Virus record (IMG/VR): IMGVR_UViG_3300002835_001420
Span: 1 to 20,043 of that record
Source of the DNA: a virus
Direction: 5' to 3' (one strand)
Length of the DNA: 20,043 nt
Under the pieces are notes generated by a model. That model did not search any database, was not told where the DNA came from, and was given only the letters and a program-made list of their open reading frames with translations. The translations under genes and the position numbers were made by a program. Within the stretch, counting starts at the first letter, position 1; each line of letters starts with the position of its first letter. Below, one piece after another: positions 7,007-19,779 of the stretch.

Positions 7007-7035
7007 AGTATACCTTTTCTAGAATCAGTTGTCAA
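7007..7035 (-). promoter_or_regulatory. Strong early promoter, predicted leaderless start
   Basis: Minus strand: consensus TTGACA (7030-7035), 17-bp spacer, TATACT (7007-7012), then 8 bases to the ATG at 6998. It sits just past the stop of the beta-solenoid gene. Confidence 0.88.
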
Positions 7036-7049
7036 GGAATTCTGAAAAA

Positions 7050-7436
7050 TTATTTCTCTCCAGAAATCCAAGCACTCCCGAAGACCTCTGCTTCCCCGAA
7101 GACCAGAGCGATTCCAAAGATTCGAGCGTTCCCAAAGACCCATGCGTCTCCGAAGACATGAGCTTCCCCAAAGACCTGTGCAGACCCAAAAACCCGAGTG
7201 TTTCCATAGACCCAAGATTCCTCAAAGACCTGAGCCCTCCCAAAAACATGAGCGTTCCCAGAGACCCGAGCGTTTCCAGAGACCTGAGACATCCCATAGA
7301 CCAGAGCTTCTGGTCCGACATAAGCAGTCTCAACTACCGAAGCAGTATTCTGGACCCAGCCTCCTCCATTCGGGTGCTGGTGCCAGGTCTCTAAATTTGC
7401 GTCAGGAAACTTTTCTTTCAATTGTTCGAGAGTCAT
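7050..7436 (-). CDS. Hexapeptide-repeat beta-solenoid protein, 128 aa
   Basis: After an N-terminal segment (MTLEQLKEKFPDANLETW, then a Gly-rich turn), residues 33-126 are about 15 imperfect hexapeptides of the type V-x-G-(N/S/E)-A-(R/Q/H), for example NARVFG and SAQVFG. This pattern gives a parallel beta-helix like YdcK-type solenoids and phage 'VYGNARV' proteins. It has no enzyme-specific residues, so it is probably a scaffold or binding protein. The repeats are visible in DNA as degenerate 18-bp units. The end (SAWISGEK-stop) and the 3' flank match the partial gene at 19886-20043, showing a gene duplication. Its ATG lies 9 bases after the -10, so the mRNA is predicted leaderless. Plus-strand frames across it are artefacts of the repeat. 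Confidence 0.88.
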   Translation of the reverse strand: MTLEQLKEKFPDANLETWHQHPNGGGWVQNTASVVETAYVGPEALVYGMSQVSGNARVSGNAHVFGRAQVFEESWVYGNTRVFGSAQVFGEAHVFGDAWVFGNARIFGIALVFGEAEVFGSAWISGEK

Positions 7437-10111: not shown

Positions 10112-10187
10112 TGGTTGGAAGTATGGGATTCGAACCCATGTGTACGGTTTCACAGACCGTCCTCTGAGACCACTCGAGTAACTCCCA
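10112..10187 (-). tRNA. tRNA-His (GTG)
   Basis: Full cloverleaf: acceptor TGGGAGT/ACTTCCA (one G-U), D-arm CTC/GAG with GG in the loop, anticodon stem ACGGT/ACCGT with loop CTGTGAA, T-loop TTCGAAT, and encoded CCA. A G lies at -1 (10188) as tRNA-His needs, but the discriminator is A, not the C usual in bacterial tRNA-His. It sits inside an operon between the lipoprotein and zinc-protein genes. Confidence 0.95.
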
Positions 10188-13692: not shown

Positions 13693-13771
13693 GCTCCCAT
13701 AGCTCAATTGGTTAGCAGCGCCCTGCTCATAACAGGTGAGGTTCTAGGTTCAAGCCCTAGTGGGAGCACCA
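13693..13771 (+). tRNA. tRNA with CAT anticodon (Met, or Ile2 if lysidine-modified)
   Basis: Acceptor GCTCCCA/TGGGAGC, D-loop with TTGGTTA, anticodon loop CTCATAA on a CCTG/CAGG stem, T-arm CTAGG/CCTAG with TTCAAGC, A73 and encoded CCA. It is the only plus-strand tRNA in the window. Anticodon CAT alone does not separate elongator Met from AUA-reading Ile2. Confidence 0.95.
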
Positions 13772-15898: not shown

Positions 15899-15921
15899 AA
15901 TTATCACCTAAGAAATATGTT

Positions 15922-15996
15922 GGAGCTGCCAGTCGGATTCGAACCGACACCAAGAGTTTGGAAGACTCCTGTGCTACCATTAAACACCATGGCCGC
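15922..15996 (-). tRNA. tRNA-Gly (TCC)
   Basis: Acceptor GCGGCCA/TGGCAGC (one G-A mismatch), D-arm GTG/CAC with AATGGTAG, anticodon loop CTTCCAA, T-arm GTCGG/CCGAC with TTCGAAT, T73, encoded CCA. Reads GGA/GGG. Confidence 0.93.
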
Positions 15997-16010
15997 AAAT
16001 TTTAAAATTT

Positions 16011-16101
16011 TGGTGCTCAGATTCGGACTTGAACCGAAACTAACCTCTGATCTGGAGTTCGGGTTTATAAGACCCGTCGTGCTACATTACACTATCTGAG
16101 C
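16011..16101 (-). tRNA. Long-variable-arm tRNA with anticodon TAT (Ile AUA codon, Leu-like body)
   Basis: 91 nt with a perfect 7-bp acceptor stem (GCTCAGA/TCTGAGC), A73 and encoded CCA. The anticodon stem is perfect (CGGGT/ACCCG) with loop CTTATAA, so the anticodon is TAT (AUA, Ile). The variable region is about 20 nt and can pair (AACTC with GAGGTT, one bulge), making this a class II tRNA like Leu or Ser. Class II with A73 is typical of tRNA-Leu, whose synthetase does not read the anticodon in E. coli. The D-loop (TAATGTAG) has only one of the usual two Gs. Which amino acid it carries cannot be told from sequence. Confidence 0.85.
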
Positions 16102-16201
16102 AAATTTTCTATAAATTCTTTATTGATTTGTTCTTTAGATAATACGATCACTTTAATGTTATTTAGTTAATGATATTGTTACACCATAGGAGCACTATTA
16201 T

Positions 16202-16262
16202 TTAGTGGCGGTTTTTTGGTTACCATTGCGTCTTTATCTTCCAACAGATAAAGAACCACTAA
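16202..16262 (-). ncRNA. Structured spacer element E1 (tRNA-like size, no CCA)
   Basis: 61 nt closed by TTAGTGG/CCACTAA (7 bp) with an internal 8-bp hairpin TCTTTATC/GATAAAGA. It directly follows tRNA-Ile(GAT) in the transcript. It has no anticodon arm, T-loop or CCA. Bases 16102-16201, beyond it, hold no clear feature. Confidence 0.5.
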
Positions 16263-16268
16263 GAAATT

Positions 16269-16346
16269 TGGTTGGCCTGATCTGATTCGAACAGACGACT
16301 TCCTTGTTATCAGCAAGGTACTCTAAACCAACTGAGTTACAGGCCA
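16269..16346 (-). tRNA. tRNA-Ile (GAT)
   Basis: Acceptor TGGCCTG/CAGGCCA, D-loop with TTGGTTTA, anticodon loop CTGATAA on CCTTG/CAAGG, T-loop TTCGAAT, A73, encoded CCA. Confidence 0.95.
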
Positions 16347-16361
16347 ATGCATTTACCAGTA

Positions 16362-16679
16362 TCAATAAGAAGAAAATTCTACTTGCAGATTATCTAATTT
16401 AATAAGATCAGGATAAATTGTAGATAGATCGATTCCATCTACAATGAAAGCCTTTTCTGTTTTCTTATGATCCATTCCACAAGATCCATTACAGGAACAA
16501 CCTGAAGAATAACACCATAGGATATCACCATTTTGATTGATTCCGATTCCTTCATATGAATGATGACCATATCCATAGTCTTCATTTTGGATCTCTTTCA
16601 CAATTACACACTCTTCCTCATCGAAAGTAGATTTCGGAAGTGAAGGATAATTTTGTACAACGTAGTCAATGATGTTCAT
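16362..16679 (-). CDS. Cys-rich hypothetical protein, 105 aa
   Basis: MNIIDYVVQNYPSLPKSTFD, then EEEC, a beta-rich middle (GYGHHSYEGIGINQNGDILW) and a dense Cys cluster CYSSGCSCNGSCGMDH, which could bind zinc or an iron-sulphur site. No family recognised. ATG 16679 has AAAGGTG upstream; a GTG 9 bases earlier overlaps that site and is less likely. It lies between tRNA-Ile(GAT) and a 55-aa gene, embedded in the tRNA transcript. Confidence 0.78.
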   Translation of the reverse strand: MNIIDYVVQNYPSLPKSTFDEEECVIVKEIQNEDYGYGHHSYEGIGINQNGDILWCYSSGCSCNGSCGMDHKKTEKAFIVDGIDLSTIYPDLIKLDNLQVEFSSY

Positions 16680-16757
16680 ATTACACACCTTTTGATAAAG
16701 ATAAGAGGTTTAACATTAAAATGTTATTTATGTTGTGATTGAGATTTTTACAATTCG

Positions 16758-16925
16758 TCAATCTGAATGTGTACTGCCATCTAACACATACTTCAATCTT
16801 TCTGTTGCGGATTCGATATCACCATAAAGAATTTCATAATTGTGAAAAGTGTATACACAAAGCTGATTATTACTTTCTGGCCAAATCCTTGCGATACAAA
16901 AATTGAATTTTTCTGAGTTACCCAT
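16758..16925 (-). CDS. Hypothetical protein, 55 aa
   Basis: MGNSEKFNFCIARIWPESNN, then QLCVYTFHNYEILYGDIES and a short helix ending STHSD. It reads like a small alpha/beta protein; no family recognised. GGAG lies 5 bases before the ATG, and codon use matches its neighbours, so it is probably real. A different frame open to 17005 starts inside the E2 structured element and is rejected. Confidence 0.68.
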   Translation of the reverse strand: MGNSEKFNFCIARIWPESNNQLCVYTFHNYEILYGDIESATERLKYVLDGSTHSD

Positions 16926-16943
16926 AAACACTCCATAAAACGG

Positions 16944-17068
16944 TTATCTGAATGCTGGTATCGAACCAGTTGCATCCAATGCACTTGTGGAATCGAACCA
17001 CCCAATAGACCTCTCTATTGGTGTCTCAGTGCGCAACCGAGACTAGCACCACACTGCCATTCAGATAA
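16944..17068 (-). ncRNA. Expanded tRNA-like element E2 with two T-arms, no CCA
   Basis: 125 nt closed by an 11-bp perfect stem (TTATCTGAATG/CATTCAGATAA). Inside on the minus strand: a D-like arm GCA/TGC, a 7-bp stem GTCTCGG/CTGAGAC with 7-nt loop TTGCGCA (would read GCG), hairpin CCAATAG/CTATTGG, a T-arm GTGG-TTCGATT-CCAC, hairpin TGCAT/ATGCA, and a second T-arm CTGG-TTCGATA-CCAG. The acceptor is followed by TAACC rather than NCCA. It looks like a tRNA with about 55 nt added in the variable region. Confidence 0.6.
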
Positions 17069-17082
17069 ATTCTTGAATATTT

Positions 17083-17161
17083 TGGTGGCTCCGTCCGGAT
17101 TCGAACCGGAATCTTATGCTCTTCAGGCATATGCTGCATACTAATCCAGCTACACAGAGCC
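17083..17161 (-). tRNA. tRNA-Phe (GAA)
   Basis: Acceptor GGCTCTG/CGGAGCC, D-stem GCTG/CAGC, anticodon loop CTGAAGA on TATGC/GCATA, T-arm TCCGG/CCGGA with TTCGAAT, A73, encoded CCA. Confidence 0.94.
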
Positions 17162-17176
17162 ATTAAAATTTTGCGC

Positions 17177-17257
17177 TTCTCAGTGGATTTCACTATAGTT
17201 CCGAATCTTGACTAGATACCTTGAGTTCAGTATCAATCGCACGTCTATCACTAAGAA
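17177..17257 (-). ncRNA. Structured spacer element E3
   Basis: 81 nt closed by TTCTTAGTG/CACTGAGAA, 9 bp including one G-U that pairs only on the minus strand, which supports transcription from that strand. Inside: hairpin GATAC/GTATC and GATT/AATC. It begins 2 bases after the CCA of tRNA-Ala in transcript order. No T-loop and no CCA. Confidence 0.52.
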
Positions 17258-17259
17258 TT

Positions 17260-17338
17260 TGGTGGAAAACATCGGATTCGAACCGATCTGATATCCGCAT
17301 TGCAAGTGCGGCGAACACCCCAAGCATTCCCGTTCCCC
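17260..17338 (-). tRNA. tRNA-Ala (TGC)
   Basis: Acceptor GGGGAAC/GTTTTCC (two G-U), D-arm GAA/TTC with GGGG in the loop, anticodon loop CTTGCAA on CCGCA/TGCGG, T-arm ATCGG/CCGAT with TTCGAAT, A73, encoded CCA. The G3-U70 pair that marks tRNA-Ala is present. Confidence 0.94.
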
Positions 17339-17347
17339 GAAAATTTT

Positions 17348-17420
17348 GGCGGTTCATGAGATAATCGAAATCTCGATTCTCCGTAGACAGCGGAGCGTTT
17401 TGCCACTAAACTAATGAACC
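17348..17420 (-). tRNA. tRNA-Asp (GTC)
   Basis: Acceptor GGTTCAT/ATGAACC, D-arm GTTT/AAAC, anticodon loop CTGTCTA on CTCCG/CGGAG, T-loop TTCGATT, G73 as expected for Asp, encoded CCA. It is the first tRNA after the internal promoter. Confidence 0.94.
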
Positions 17421-17436
17421 GTTTATCAACATATTT

Positions 17437-17465
17437 AGTATACTACATTTAGATCTTTTTGTCAA
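17437..17465 (-). promoter_or_regulatory. Consensus promoter inside the tRNA cluster
   Basis: Minus strand: TTGACA (17460-17465), 17-bp spacer, TATACT (17437-17442). The predicted start near 17430 is about 10 bases before tRNA-Asp, so it drives the Asp-Ala-Phe-Ile-Gly half of the cluster. Confidence 0.88.
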
Positions 17466-17470
17466 TCTGA

Positions 17471-17644
17471 TTAATACTTCGTTAAATCGAACAAAGTAAT
17501 TATTCCGTCACGATCAACACCGAATTGCATTTCTCTATAAGAGAAGAACCAGACTTCAAATAGATTAGAATATCTAAGTTCAGGAATTACTTCTGATAAT
17601 CCCATTTCTGTTAAAGCAGCAATAACTGTATTAGTTGGTTTCAT
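17471..17644 (-). CDS. Hypothetical protein, 57 aa
   Basis: MKPTNTVIAALTEMGLSEVI followed by ELRYSNLFEVWFFSYREMQF and GVDRDGIITLFDLTKY, a helix plus beta hairpins. No family recognised. The frame is open to 17740, but ATG 17644 lies 4 bases after the stop of the 77-aa gene and is the natural coupled start. Its stop sits directly before the internal tRNA promoter. Confidence 0.7.
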   Translation of the reverse strand: MKPTNTVIAALTEMGLSEVIPELRYSNLFEVWFFSYREMQFGVDRDGIITLFDLTKY

Positions 17645-17648
17645 ATGA

Positions 17649-17882
17649 TTATCGACACAATTGCCCGCAATAGGCACAATAAAAACCAGAACTTCTTCCA
17701 GACATACAATACAATAGCCAAGGTTCGTTACACTTAACACACCCAGCGTTGTTTTGCTCTAGTATGTTTTCTTCGGGAATATGTGTAGTTCCGACAAGAA
17801 TGAACCCATCGCACGTGATGCGGAATTGTTCAATCCCTTGTTGAGAAATTGTGTATTCATTGTTATTCTGTAGTTGGTTCAT
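17649..17882 (-). CDS. Zinc-ribbon protein, 77 aa
   Basis: The C-terminal half carries CVKC and CAYC pairs plus further Cys (LLYC, QLC), a typical four-Cys zinc ribbon; the N-terminal half (ISQQGIEQFRITCDGFILVG) is beta-rich. Function unknown. No clear ribosome site. It lies downstream of the E4 element in the tRNA transcript and is coupled to the 57-aa gene. The two neighbours could be two halves of one older gene, but no frameshift is needed to explain them. Confidence 0.72.
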   Translation of the reverse strand: MNQLQNNNEYTISQQGIEQFRITCDGFILVGTTHIPEENILEQNNAGCVKCNEPWLLYCMSGRSSGFYCAYCGQLCR

Positions 17883-17922
17883 ATATTTTATTGTTAACTG
17901 CCCTTCTGAAATCTTAGTTACT

Positions 17923-18117
17923 ATTACTGTGCCACGGATTCTTACCGTGTGTAAGGCTCCCAGTACCTATCTCCACGAGCATTGATCGTTTACACGTTGT
18001 TAGTCGTTTGGGTTGTATTCGTGGCTTTCACAGAAGGAGAAGCTTACTATTTCTGTCCACAGGTTAACTACCTGATGGTGATTTTCGAGGTTCGGGCATG
18101 ACCTCCCACACAGTAAT
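17923..18117 (-). ncRNA. Large structured RNA element E4 (195 nt)
   Basis: Closed by a perfect 9-bp stem ATTACTGTG/CACAGTAAT lying 2 bases from tRNA-Cys. On the minus strand it contains GGG-AGGTCATG-CCC, CAGGT/ACCTG, ACAGAA/TTCTGT, CCACGA/TCGTGG, and, next to the 3' closing strand, a T-arm-like CACGG-TAAGAAT-CCGTG. No open reading frame explains it. It has no CCA and no tmRNA tag frame that I can see. The strand is inferred from its neighbours and the T-arm-like end. Confidence 0.5.
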
Positions 18118-18119
18118 TC

Positions 18120-18193
18120 TGGAGCGTTCTATGAGATTTTAACTCATCTAAATCTGCTTTGCAGGCAGATGCCTAGTCACTCGGCCAAGAACG
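18120..18193 (-). tRNA. tRNA-Cys (GCA)
   Basis: Acceptor GCGTTCT/AGAACGC, D-stem GCC/GGC, anticodon loop CTGCAAA on TCTGC/GCAGA, T-arm ATGAG/CTCAT with TTAAAAT, T73 as expected for Cys, encoded CCA. Bases 18194-18351 after it hold only an AT-rich spacer with a short palindrome CTCTAATATTAGAG. Confidence 0.93.
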
Positions 18194-18351
18194 CAAATAT
18201 CTTTTTGAACCAAGAAGTCAAACTATTTGTTGGTTTTGTTGGTTTAATATTTTTATTATAACAACAAATCTTAAGACGATTCTCTCTAATATTAGAGATC
18301 GACTTATAAGGAGAATATTTTAAATGGAGTTCACGTTTCATAATTAGAATT

Positions 18352-18427
18352 TGGTGCGCCCTGTGAGACTCGAACTCACGACCCTTGCATTAAAAGTGCA
18401 ATGCTCCACCAACTGAGCTAAGAGCGC
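18352..18427 (-). tRNA. tRNA-Lys (TTT)
   Basis: Acceptor GCGCTCT/AGGGCGC, D-arm GCTC/GAGC with GTTGGT, anticodon loop CTTTTAA on TTGCA/TGCAA, T-arm GTGAG/CTCAC with TTCGAGT, A73, encoded CCA. Confidence 0.95.
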
Positions 18428-18435
18428 AAAATTGT

Positions 18436-18484
18436 TTTCATCCTTTCTGTTTACTCCCCAAACTGGGAGAGTCAGGCGATGAAA
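18436..18484 (-). ncRNA. Structured spacer element E5
   Basis: 49 nt closed by TTTCATC/GATGAAA with an internal CTCCC/GGGAG hairpin. It fills the gap between tRNA-Gln and tRNA-Lys. No tRNA consensus and no CCA. Confidence 0.42.
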
Positions 18485-18504
18485 GATTGTATAACATTTA
18501 AATT

Positions 18505-18580
18505 TGGTAGCCAAACTAGGGGACGATCCTAGAACCTTCTGAGTCAAAGTCAGACGCTCTACCAATTGAGCTATTTGGCT
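18505..18580 (-). tRNA. tRNA-Gln (TTG)
   Basis: Acceptor AGCCAAA/TTTGGCT, D-arm GCTC/GAGC, anticodon loop CTTTGAC on TCTGA/TCAGA, T-stem CTAGG/CCTAG, A73, encoded CCA. The T-loop is ATCGTCC: positions 54 and 58 are A and U instead of the usual U and A. Confidence 0.93.
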
Positions 18581-18588
18581 AGAAATTC

Positions 18589-18643
18589 GTTGTTTGTAGC
18601 GTCCCTTCCATCGCTTCTTTGGGAGAGATCATACCCAAACAAC
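18589..18643 (-). ncRNA. Structured spacer element E6
   Basis: 55 nt closed by GTTGTTTG/CAAACAAC (8 bp) with an AGCG/CGCT hairpin; an alternative 7-bp pairing GATCATA/TATGATC competes with the closing stem. No tRNA consensus and no CCA. Confidence 0.42.
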
Positions 18644-18660
18644 AGAGATATGATCGAAAT

Positions 18661-18737
18661 TGGTGTCGATGACGAGATTCGAACTCGCAATACCCACCTT
18701 GAAAGGGTGGTGGCTTAACCAATTTGCCTACATCGAC
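18661..18737 (-). tRNA. tRNA-Glu (TTC)
   Basis: Acceptor GTCGATG/CATCGAC, D-stem GGC/GCC with TTGGTTAA, anticodon loop CTTTCAA on CCACC/GGTGG, T-loop TTCGAAT, A73, encoded CCA. Confidence 0.94.
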
Positions 18738-18787
18738 AATTCAAATTATATGATATTATAAGTTTTAGATGGTGTTCAGGCCATATA

Positions 18788-18876
18788 GATGATTATCGAG
18801 AATTACGTCTCTAAAGGAATTGAACCTTTGACCAGTTCAGGTTGGTTTGCTCCCAGCAATTTAACCTATAATCATC
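18788..18876 (-). ncRNA. tRNA-like element E7 with extra arm, no CCA
   Basis: 89 nt closed by a perfect 9-bp stem GATGATTAT/ATAATCATC. Arms in transcript order: TTGCT-GGG-AGCAA, ACCA/TGGT with an 8-nt loop, a true T-arm AAAGG-TTCAATT-CCTTT, then an extra hairpin GAGA/TCTC between T-arm and closing stem. No usable anticodon loop. Confidence 0.58.
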
Positions 18877-18882
18877 ATCGAT

Positions 18883-18951
18883 GTATCCTGCCCGAGTCGA
18901 ACGGACGTTGACCTTCACTTGAACCAACCTGCGCCCGGCAGTTTTGGATAC
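18883..18951 (-). ncRNA. tRNA-like element E8, no CCA
   Basis: 69 nt closed by GTATCC/GGATAC, with a D-like arm CTGC-CGGGC-GCAG, a middle arm GTTG/CAAC whose loop is far longer than 7 nt, and a T-arm GTCCG-TTCGACT-CGGGC. It ends CATCGA, not CCA. It may be a decayed tRNA. Confidence 0.58.
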
Positions 18952-18982
18952 GTTCTATTGTACTTATTTCAAAACAATATTT

Positions 18983-19110
18983 TGGTTGTGGGAGTTGGAT
19001 TTGAACCAAAACCGGACTATCTATCAGTATTCGTTTTCCCGGGTCGAATACTTACCTGTCGTCGCCACGTCTCAGAATGACGTCGCTCTATCCATTTGAG
19101 CTATCCCAAC
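18983..19110 (-). tRNA. tRNA-Arg (TCT) with about 55 nt inserted in the variable region
   Basis: The D-arm (GCTC/GAGC, AATGGATA) and anticodon arm (ACGTC-ATTCTGA-GACGT, anticodon TCT) are normal, as are the T-loop TTCAAAT and encoded CCA. Between anticodon arm and T-arm lie about 55 extra bases with a perfect hairpin (AGTATTCG/CGAATACT). The acceptor stem pairs well only in its inner part (TGGGA/TCCCA); the outer pairs fit only with a bulge. A normal tRNA-Arg(TCT) lies at 19445-19521. It may be decaying, carry a large variable arm, or hold an intervening sequence. Confidence 0.72.
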
Positions 19111-19124
19111 ACGATAAAATCTAA

Positions 19125-19253
19125 GATGTATGAGTCAGATTTGAACTGACACGCATTTTAATCCTCTAATCAGTTATCCTAGGTTCTAGATTAGATTCAT
19201 AAAATATGTCACGACTCTCGCCGCCGCACTGACCATTTATGCTATCATACATC
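19125..19253 (-). ncRNA. tRNA-like element E10 without anticodon loop, no CCA
   Basis: 129 nt closed by a perfect 9-bp stem GATGTATGA/TCATACATC. The D-arm GCAT/GTGC with AATGG and the T-arm GTCAG-TTCAAAT-CTGAC are normal. Where the anticodon arm should be is CGGC-GAGA-GTCG, a GNRA tetraloop hairpin. A long hairpin with arms ATTTTA...CTAATC and GATTAG...TAAAAT takes the place of the variable loop. Confidence 0.62.
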
Positions 19254-19259
19254 AAACTG

Positions 19260-19345
19260 TGGAGGAAGAATACAGCATCGAACTGTTATCCCGTAGGATA
19301 CTCTAGTTTTCAAGACTAGTTGAGGAGCCAACCTCAGATTCTTCC
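19260..19345 (-). tRNA. tRNA-Ser (TGA)
   Basis: Acceptor GGAAGAA/TTCTTCC, D-arm TGAG/CTCA with TTGGCTC, anticodon loop CTTGAAA on CTAGT/ACTAG, class II variable arm TATCC/GGATA, T-loop TTCGATG on ACAG/CTGT, encoded CCA. The discriminator is T, not the G usual for Ser. Confidence 0.92.
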
Positions 19346-19354
19346 AAAATTGTA

Positions 19355-19441
19355 TTAGAGTAGCTAGTAACCGAAAACTAGATGTTTTCTTTTATACTGA
19401 CTAGTTCAGCTCGATTATTTATCGTTTATAAGTTACTCTAA
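19355..19441 (-). ncRNA. Cloverleaf-like spacer element E11
   Basis: 87 nt closed by TTAGAGTA/TACTCTAA (8 bp) with three hairpins: CGAT-AAATA-ATCG, CTGA-ACTAG-TCAG and CTAG/CTAG. The layout and size match a cloverleaf, but no loop has tRNA consensus and there is no CCA. Confidence 0.5.
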
Positions 19442-19444
19442 AAT

Positions 19445-19521
19445 TGGTAGTCCCGCCTGGGCACGATCCAGGAACCGCCGACTTAGAAGGTCGGAACTCT
19501 ATCCAATTGAGCTACGGGACC
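19445..19521 (-). tRNA. tRNA-Arg (TCT)
   Basis: Acceptor GGTCCCG/CGGGACT (one G-U), D-arm GCTC/GAGT with TTGGATA, anticodon loop CTTCTAA on CCGAC/GTCGG, T-stem CCTGG/CCAGG with loop ATCGTGC (A54/U58 as in tRNA-Gln), A73, encoded CCA. It is the first tRNA of the cluster in transcript order. Confidence 0.94.
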
Positions 19522-19607: not shown

Positions 19608-19675
19608 AGGTGACACTTTATTTCCATACCTTAAACACAAGTTTCCATGCGTAGATGGTTGTAAAGTGTCACCAT
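19608..19675 (-). repeat. 68-bp structured repeat, copy A
   Basis: Identical to copy B at 19712-19779, period 104 bp. Ends form a 12-bp perfect inverted repeat GGTGACACTTTA/TAAAGTGTCACC; inside are AAAC/GTTT and CCAT/ATGG hairpins, so the RNA could fold as a three-way junction. The strand is inferred from the flanking promoters. Confidence 0.85.
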
Positions 19676-19711: not shown

Positions 19712-19779
19712 AGGTGACACTTTATTTCCATACCTTAAACACAAGTTTCCATGCGTAGATGGTTGTAAAGTGTCACCAT
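19712..19779 (-). repeat. 68-bp structured repeat, copy B
   Basis: Exact second copy of 19608-19675. It lies downstream of the promoter at 19837-19865 and upstream of the tRNA promoter, so it should be transcribed. The 36 bases between the copies are unrelated AT-rich sequence. Confidence 0.85.

Follow-up and report, generated by a model that had tools for sequence, protein, structure and literature searches.

For decades, the reason why phages carry arrays of transfer RNA (tRNA) genes has been a puzzle, and two RNAs from such an array, RNA C (species 1 RNA) and RNA D of phage T4, have been without a function since their discovery. Both are small stable RNAs; RNA C contains a canonical T-arm (CCGGGTTCGAATCCCGG), and its CCA is not encoded. 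Two other phage RNAs without an assigned function, GOLLD and ROOL, are often found near tRNA islands and assemble through kissing loops (PMC12286853), and a tag-less form of transfer-messenger RNA (tmRNA) from phage DS6A inhibits the host tmRNA when expressed (PMC11915505). Here we analyzed the tRNA cluster of IMG/VR record IMGVR_UViG_3300002835_001420, complete at 20,043 nt and hereafter the window, in which a spacer element named E2 occupies a setting like that of the T4 RNAs. From its sequence, E2 very probably belongs to a widespread family of phage tRNA mimics, the double T-arm RNAs, which join an acceptor stem to two T-arms, have another hairpin in place of the anticodon and usually lack CCA.

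The window comes from a T4-like phage, with PHROGs matches for its clamp loader, sliding clamp and exonuclease; among isolates, the clamp loader reaches no more than 56% identity (Pelagibacter phage Mosig). Its tRNA cluster holds 11 tRNAs called by ARAGORN, a tRNA-Ser(UGA) at about 19253–19344 and a tRNA with an enlarged center (tX; Table 1). Read from 17068 to 16944, with a predicted fold of −51 kcal/mol, E2 places within an 11-bp acceptor-like stem a D-like hairpin with a UGG loop (GCA-GUGUGG-UGC), a hairpin in the anticodon position (GUCUCGG-UUGCGCA-CUGAGAC), an extra hairpin, T-arm 1, a UUGG hairpin and T-arm 2, which abuts the closing stem. The T-arm stems are GTGG/CCAC and CTGG/CCAG, and the tandem cores read GGTTCGATTCC...GGTTCGATACC. 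A usable anticodon loop has 7 nt, U33 and a purine at position 37; the E2 loop UUGCGCA has C37. The tail, ...CAGATAACCG, lacks CCA, unlike the neighboring tRNAs. An original prediction, made from the letters of the window, had held that every canonical tRNA here encodes CCA and that the structured spacers between them do not, and this was borne out: CCA is present in 13 of 13 ARAGORN tRNAs of the window, and several spacers are flanked by inverted repeats and encode none. The tandem pair of T-arms in E2 had been overlooked.

Conservation and covariation in relatives had been set beforehand as the test of these structures. The relatives compared (contigs L009/L023, L010, L020–L022, L024–L028 and L291) carry related genes and, in most cases, a homologous tRNA cluster. 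E2 has one homologue in L028 (11416–11529), where it follows tRNA-Phe as in the window, and another in L291. Because a plain MAFFT alignment misplaces the stems, E2 and its L028 homologue were compared over helices set by hand. None of the 19 pairs compared was broken. Five had changed on both sides; the closing stem and the D-like stem account for two each and the anticodon-position stem for one. In element Ea, the L010 homologue shows one two-sided change (CUGA/UCAG to CCGA/UCGG). The outcome named in advance as refuting, relatives with neither conservation nor covariation, thus did not arise for E2 or Ea.

Double T-arm RNAs are found well beyond these relatives. A first, wide scan of IMG/VR for the tandem T-arm pattern returned many contigs with both T-arms beneath one closing stem, but ordinary tRNA pairs and chance matches were numerous too, and our counts therefore come from a stricter scan; a covariance model was built from 12 double T-arm contigs. 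The stricter scan gave 116 stretches in 2.9 million viral contigs and 39 in 84,980 prokaryotic genomes (257 Gb), where a single locus (L183, 67 bits) was a clear member. In IMG/VR the family amounts to 101 loci, 73 distinct sequences and 48 clusters at 80% identity. Among isolated phages, Synechococcus phage S-CREM1 carries an unannotated member (105 bits), located at 44481–44571 of OP535465 with tRNA-Phe and tRNA-Ile on either side, and Synechococcus phage B23 another (72 bits), with UUUGAUU as the T-arm 1 loop; other subtypes matched S-CREM1 only, or no isolate. One carrier contig has the RNA beside a virion RNA polymerase gene of N4 type and others beside exonuclease, UvsX, terminase, portal or endolysin genes, and with neighbors this diverse the family is not confined to a single group of phages. 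All 74 loci with tRNAs share the strand of the nearest tRNA, which is within 20 nt in 52 of them; the other 27 of the 101 have no tRNA in the sequence examined, and some of these adjoin an exonuclease, UvsX, terminase or portal gene.

The fold of the family is supported by covariation throughout. In alignment A4 (80 hits, 57 distinct), 93.1% of cells were paired, and two-sided changes occurred in 23 of 27 pairs and in all six helices. The covariation score was 0.845; shuffles gave 0.174 and slid controls no more than 0.124. Neither the stems nor the UGG-loop and anticodon-position hairpins were criteria of the DNA scan, and the hairpin with a TGG loop was found in 36 of 48 clusters (24% in shuffles). 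A control scan with the linker and T-arm 2 alone, making no demand on T-arm 1, returned 34 contigs, 33 of them already known and with a canonical T-arm 1 loop and one new, with UUCGAUU. CCA is encoded by 3 of the 18 double T-arm RNAs that lie in arrays where at least 70% of tRNAs encode it. The anticodon-position loop is a tetraloop in most members, most commonly GACG. The family keeps the features by which elbow-binding proteins recognize tRNA and drops those needed for decoding. E2 shares its architecture: two tandem canonical T-arms, one stem of 7–11 bp around both, a UGG hairpin, a hairpin with no anticodon and a linker with UUGG.

Several observations weigh against this reading. Because the scan asked for the letters of both T-arm cores and for the GG of the linker, the conservation of these is in part built in, and alignment A4 was fitted to a covariance model. 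Under the family models E2 scores 21.1 and 26.4 bits and its L028 homologue 26.6 and 33.1 bits, values that ordinary tRNAs (up to 37 bits) also reach. The two extra hairpins inserted in E2 account for its low score; at the level of the tRNA background, membership rests on the shared architecture. Automatic alignment of all family members together with E2 was unsuccessful. A few members do encode CCA, no conserved gene stood beside the RNAs among the neighbors examined, and E2 and the family are known here from DNA alone. With this reservation over the model score, we place E2 as a probable, enlarged member of the double T-arm family, by architecture. The reading frames most commonly shared among the neighbors were considered as partner genes and rejected: they lie opposite the RNA and are probably antisense readings of tRNA clusters.

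None of the systems compared has this combination of parts. In common with tRNA (RF00005), double T-arm RNA has an acceptor stem, a T-arm adjoining it and a D-like hairpin with GG, but it differs in its second T-arm, in the position of the variable arm, as well as in the missing anticodon and the usual absence of CCA; the Rfam tRNA model gave no listing at double T-arm positions. The tRNAs for Ser, Leu, Tyr and Sec also have a hairpin between the anticodon arm and the T-arm, but in double T-arm RNA this hairpin is itself a T-arm with a canonical loop. T4 RNA C, in contrast, has one T-arm and a long central helix, and scored 22 bits with family model R2, the same as the tRNA background, with one shared T-arm. 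The tRNA-like domain of tmRNA and the DS6A form are likewise phage-borne tRNA-like RNAs with no anticodon; unlike tmRNA, double T-arm RNA has two T-arms, no tag reading frame, no pseudoknots and no G-U identity pair that we could see, and the Rfam tmRNA model reached 16.5 bits at best (cut-off 47). GOLLD and ROOL are much larger, and their Rfam models had no hit at gathering score in the window or its relatives. At both gathering and permissive thresholds, Rfam 15 had no family at these positions, and it lists no double T-arm family; nor did we find a two-T-arm RNA described in the open-access literature (subscription papers lay outside the search). The family is thus apparently undescribed.

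How might such an RNA act? Each T-arm could have a G-G partner, one in the UGG loop of the D-like hairpin and one in the YUGG linker, with a short hairpin in place of the anticodon. Where it lies in a tRNA cluster, double T-arm RNA would be co-transcribed with the tRNAs, and its 5′ end would probably be cut by RNase P, since RNase P recognizes a stacked acceptor stem and T-arm. The mature RNA would be unable to decode, and aminoacylation is improbable for most members. Instead, it may present tRNA elbows to elbow-reading proteins, as a competitor or sponge, the most likely targets being host enzymes or defense effectors that act on the tRNA core, and some members may do so as dimers through palindromic loops. 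The inhibition of tmRNA by the DS6A RNA is a precedent. The double T-arm structure and the elbow-binding mechanism, taken together, strike us as plausible, if just short of an even chance. We would suggest, more tentatively, that these RNAs may be a new class of phage non-coding RNA: two-elbow mimics with no anticodon, some of them dimerizing, that capture tRNA-handling host or defense proteins during infection.

Could the structured spacers instead be processing or stability elements that keep tRNAs apart in a polycistronic precursor and that RNase P, RNase E or RNase Z recognizes and then discards during maturation? They lie a few nt from tRNAs on the same strand, and in several the last hairpin abuts the closing stem, an arrangement that makes a minimal RNase P substrate. 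However, most tRNA pairs of the same arrays have no such element, the double T-arm family is far more elaborate than a spacer requires, and the 27 loci with no tRNA argue against a pure spacer role, so that we consider this explanation rather unlikely. That the spacers are tRNA genes decayed by loss of CCA and anticodon, one of the options in the original prediction, is true of the truncated 5′ half of tRNA-Ile (which that prediction had overlooked) and probably of E8, as L022 keeps only its 5′ part; in L020, half of E3 is gone, with two tRNAs. As a general account it is unlikely. E2 and its family retain all their stems by compensatory change over large distances, and this covariation already contradicts decay for E2. 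Moreover, a second T-arm is a gain rather than a loss, and E3 is 98–100% identical over 106 nt in three other contigs.

The remaining explanations concern what the loops might do. Through palindromic kissing loops, two double T-arm RNAs could form a dimeric or scaffolding particle bearing four T-arms, on a principle like that of the GOLLD and ROOL assemblies. Counted with one closing pair, the loop is palindromic (TGCGCA, TGCGCGCA, GCGCGC or GCATGC) in 9 of 62 distinct central hairpins and in 6 of the 12 loops of at least 6 nt (10% in shuffles), and E2, L072 and L260 share UGCGCA. But the palindromes were a post hoc observation, GACG, which is the most frequent loop, has no palindrome and the L028 homologue of E2 has GCGC only, which makes a dimer role improbable. 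We regard it as very improbable that double T-arm RNA is a working non-standard tRNA, for instance for serine, in which T-arm 1 serves as the anticodon arm and UUCGAUU is read as CGA. ARAGORN does label some members tRNA-Ser, Leu or Asp, and UUUGAUU of phage B23 would read UGA, serine too. Yet U would then occupy position 37, where A37 is the rule after an anticodon that ends in A; the loop holds the T-loop pattern, with N59 and Y60 varying; and CCA is mostly absent where the real tRNAs of the array encode it. The original prediction had also offered, as one option, decoys for anticodon nucleases (PrrC is an example), and phage tRNAs have indeed been linked to evasion of these nucleases (PMC10264068). 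This fits E2 poorly, because its loop, with C37, is not a usable anticodon loop, and neither E2 nor the family offers an anticodon loop that such nucleases could read; we consider it highly unlikely. Enzymes reading the tRNA elbow or variable region could still be the targets of a decoy.

A widespread family that keeps the elbow, lacks the anticodon and duplicates the T-arm means that at least part of phage tRNA arrays serves no decoding. It also offers defined molecules, including those of the culturable phages S-CREM1 and B23, for sponge, processing and scaffold models. A practical warning is that tRNA annotation tools miscall double T-arm RNAs as tRNA-Ser, tRNA-Leu or tRNA-Asp.

The other spacers were less uniform than had been thought. 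At least ten had been described as bracketed by near-perfect closing stems of 6–11 bp and as one family of elements. We scored each closing stem against dinucleotide shuffles of the same spacer. The stems stood out as a group (Fisher combined p = 0.001), but only those of E2 (p = 0.015) and of the Gln-Glu spacer (p = 0.03) had p < 0.05 individually; most others had p = 0.06–0.16, and spacers 18195–18351 and 18872–18984 gave no signal. The count was therefore overstated, and since such single-sequence statistics are too weak for ten bracketed spacers, comparison with relatives is needed. Rather than one family, the spacers hold a mixture of a conserved double T-arm RNA, unrelated elements, tRNA-like RNAs and decayed tRNAs. 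The likening of the spacers to T4 RNA C and RNA D was apt, some being structured tRNA-like RNAs with no CCA, and a T-arm with a TTCRA loop, predicted for several, was found in E2, E7 and Eb; that of E8 is weak.

Table 1. Features of the tRNA cluster and its spacers (window coordinates; basis as obtained here).
Feature	Position	Strand	Description	Basis
tRNA cluster	15921–19521	−	Gly, Ile, Ile, Phe, Ala, Asp, Cys, Lys, Gln, Glu, Ser, Arg and tX	
tRNA-Ile(UAU) fragment	16102–16195	−	Truncated 5′ half	Comparison with L023
E1	16202–16262	−	7-bp closing stem over 9-bp hairpin	In near-identical L009/L023, beside tRNA-Trp
E2	16944–17068	−	Putative double T-arm tRNA-like RNA, no CCA	Fold; homologues in L028 and L291; family comparison
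Tandem T-arm cores in E2	16957–16999	−	Two T-arm cores	1 match; 0 in 100 window shuffles
E3	17177–17257	−	9-bp closing stem (one U-G), internal hairpins, no T-arm	Conserved block
E5	17923–18117	−	10-bp closing stem around ~195 nt; 3′ hairpin (UAAGAAU loop) in T-arm position	
Lys-Gln spacer	18436–18484	−	7-bp stem over inner hairpin	p = 0.16; no homologue found
Gln-Glu spacer	18588–18644	−	9-bp closing stem	p = 0.03; no homologue found
E7	18788–18876	−	9-bp acceptor-like stem, GGG-loop hairpin, one T-arm (AAAGGTTCAATTCCTTT), no CCA	
E8	18883–18951	−	6-bp stem, one weak T-arm, no CCA	
tX	18983–19113	−	tRNA-like: D-arm, T-arm, CCA, enlarged irregular center	Homologues in L010, L022 and L011
Eb	19125–19253	−	9-bp acceptor-like stem, D-arm-like hairpin, T-arm, long variable arm, no CCA	
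Ea	19355–19441	−	8-bp closing stem, three hairpins	L010 homologue, 84% identity

Apart from E2, the spacers comprise conserved RNAs, putative hairpins and decayed sequence. Ea and tX are conserved structured RNAs of other types, and the motif AGAACCNNGGATAACTRAYTAGA is common to Eb and the tX homologues. No homologue of E7 or E5 was found. As the original prediction had noted, the U-G pair in the E3 stem permits pairing on the minus strand only. E3 and tRNA-Phe form a block that is 96–100% identical among the window, L021, L022 and L028, vs. 60–89% for the neighboring tRNAs and an open reading frame; in isolated phages E3 had no match. Ultraconservation of E3 by selection alone was weakened as an explanation by the adjoining tRNA-Phe, for which identity is likewise 96–97%, since a single exchange may have moved the whole block; exchange and selection are equally likely. 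Next to the truncated tRNA-Ile, the tRNA-Trp of L023 has been deleted in the window between GCTCC repeats.

Unusual tRNA-like genes also occur in the relatives. In L010 (2780–2905), a tRNA-Asn(GUU)-like gene that encodes CCA has a hairpin of ~49 nt inserted into its anticodon loop (Rfam, 54 bits); either the insertion is a short intron of an unusual kind or the gene is a tRNA with its anticodon ablated. A tRNA-like gene in L028 (11055–11152) and L020 (9741–9837) ends in GCCA and has its anticodon arm lengthened by a hairpin of ~29 nt. In a tRNA-Arg(UCU)-like gene conserved in L022 (8415–8493) and L010 (2490–2580), a CCCGAC/GUUGGG stem enclosing the anticodon arm replaces the D-arm. Elsewhere, a tmRNA gene of cyanobacterial type (L120, 776–1034; 103 bits) shares a phage tRNA array with a double T-arm RNA, and another phage tRNA array holds larger RNAs with no Rfam match (L012, 2466–2723, 2719–2848 and 3178–3590), the first two with closing stems of ~16–17 bp.

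Outside the cluster, the window has further tRNAs for His and Met (10112–10187 and 13693–13771), on opposite strands. Just upstream of the cluster, an imperfect inverted repeat of 68 bp (GTGACACTTTATTTCCATACC...GGTTGTAAAGTGTCAC) occurs in two identical copies (19608–19675 and 19712–19779), which might serve as promoters or terminators. Finally, the end of the contig (19887–20043) is a short tandem repeat of the CCAGAGACCTGAGCGGA type that resembles the repeat-coding region at 7031–7307.

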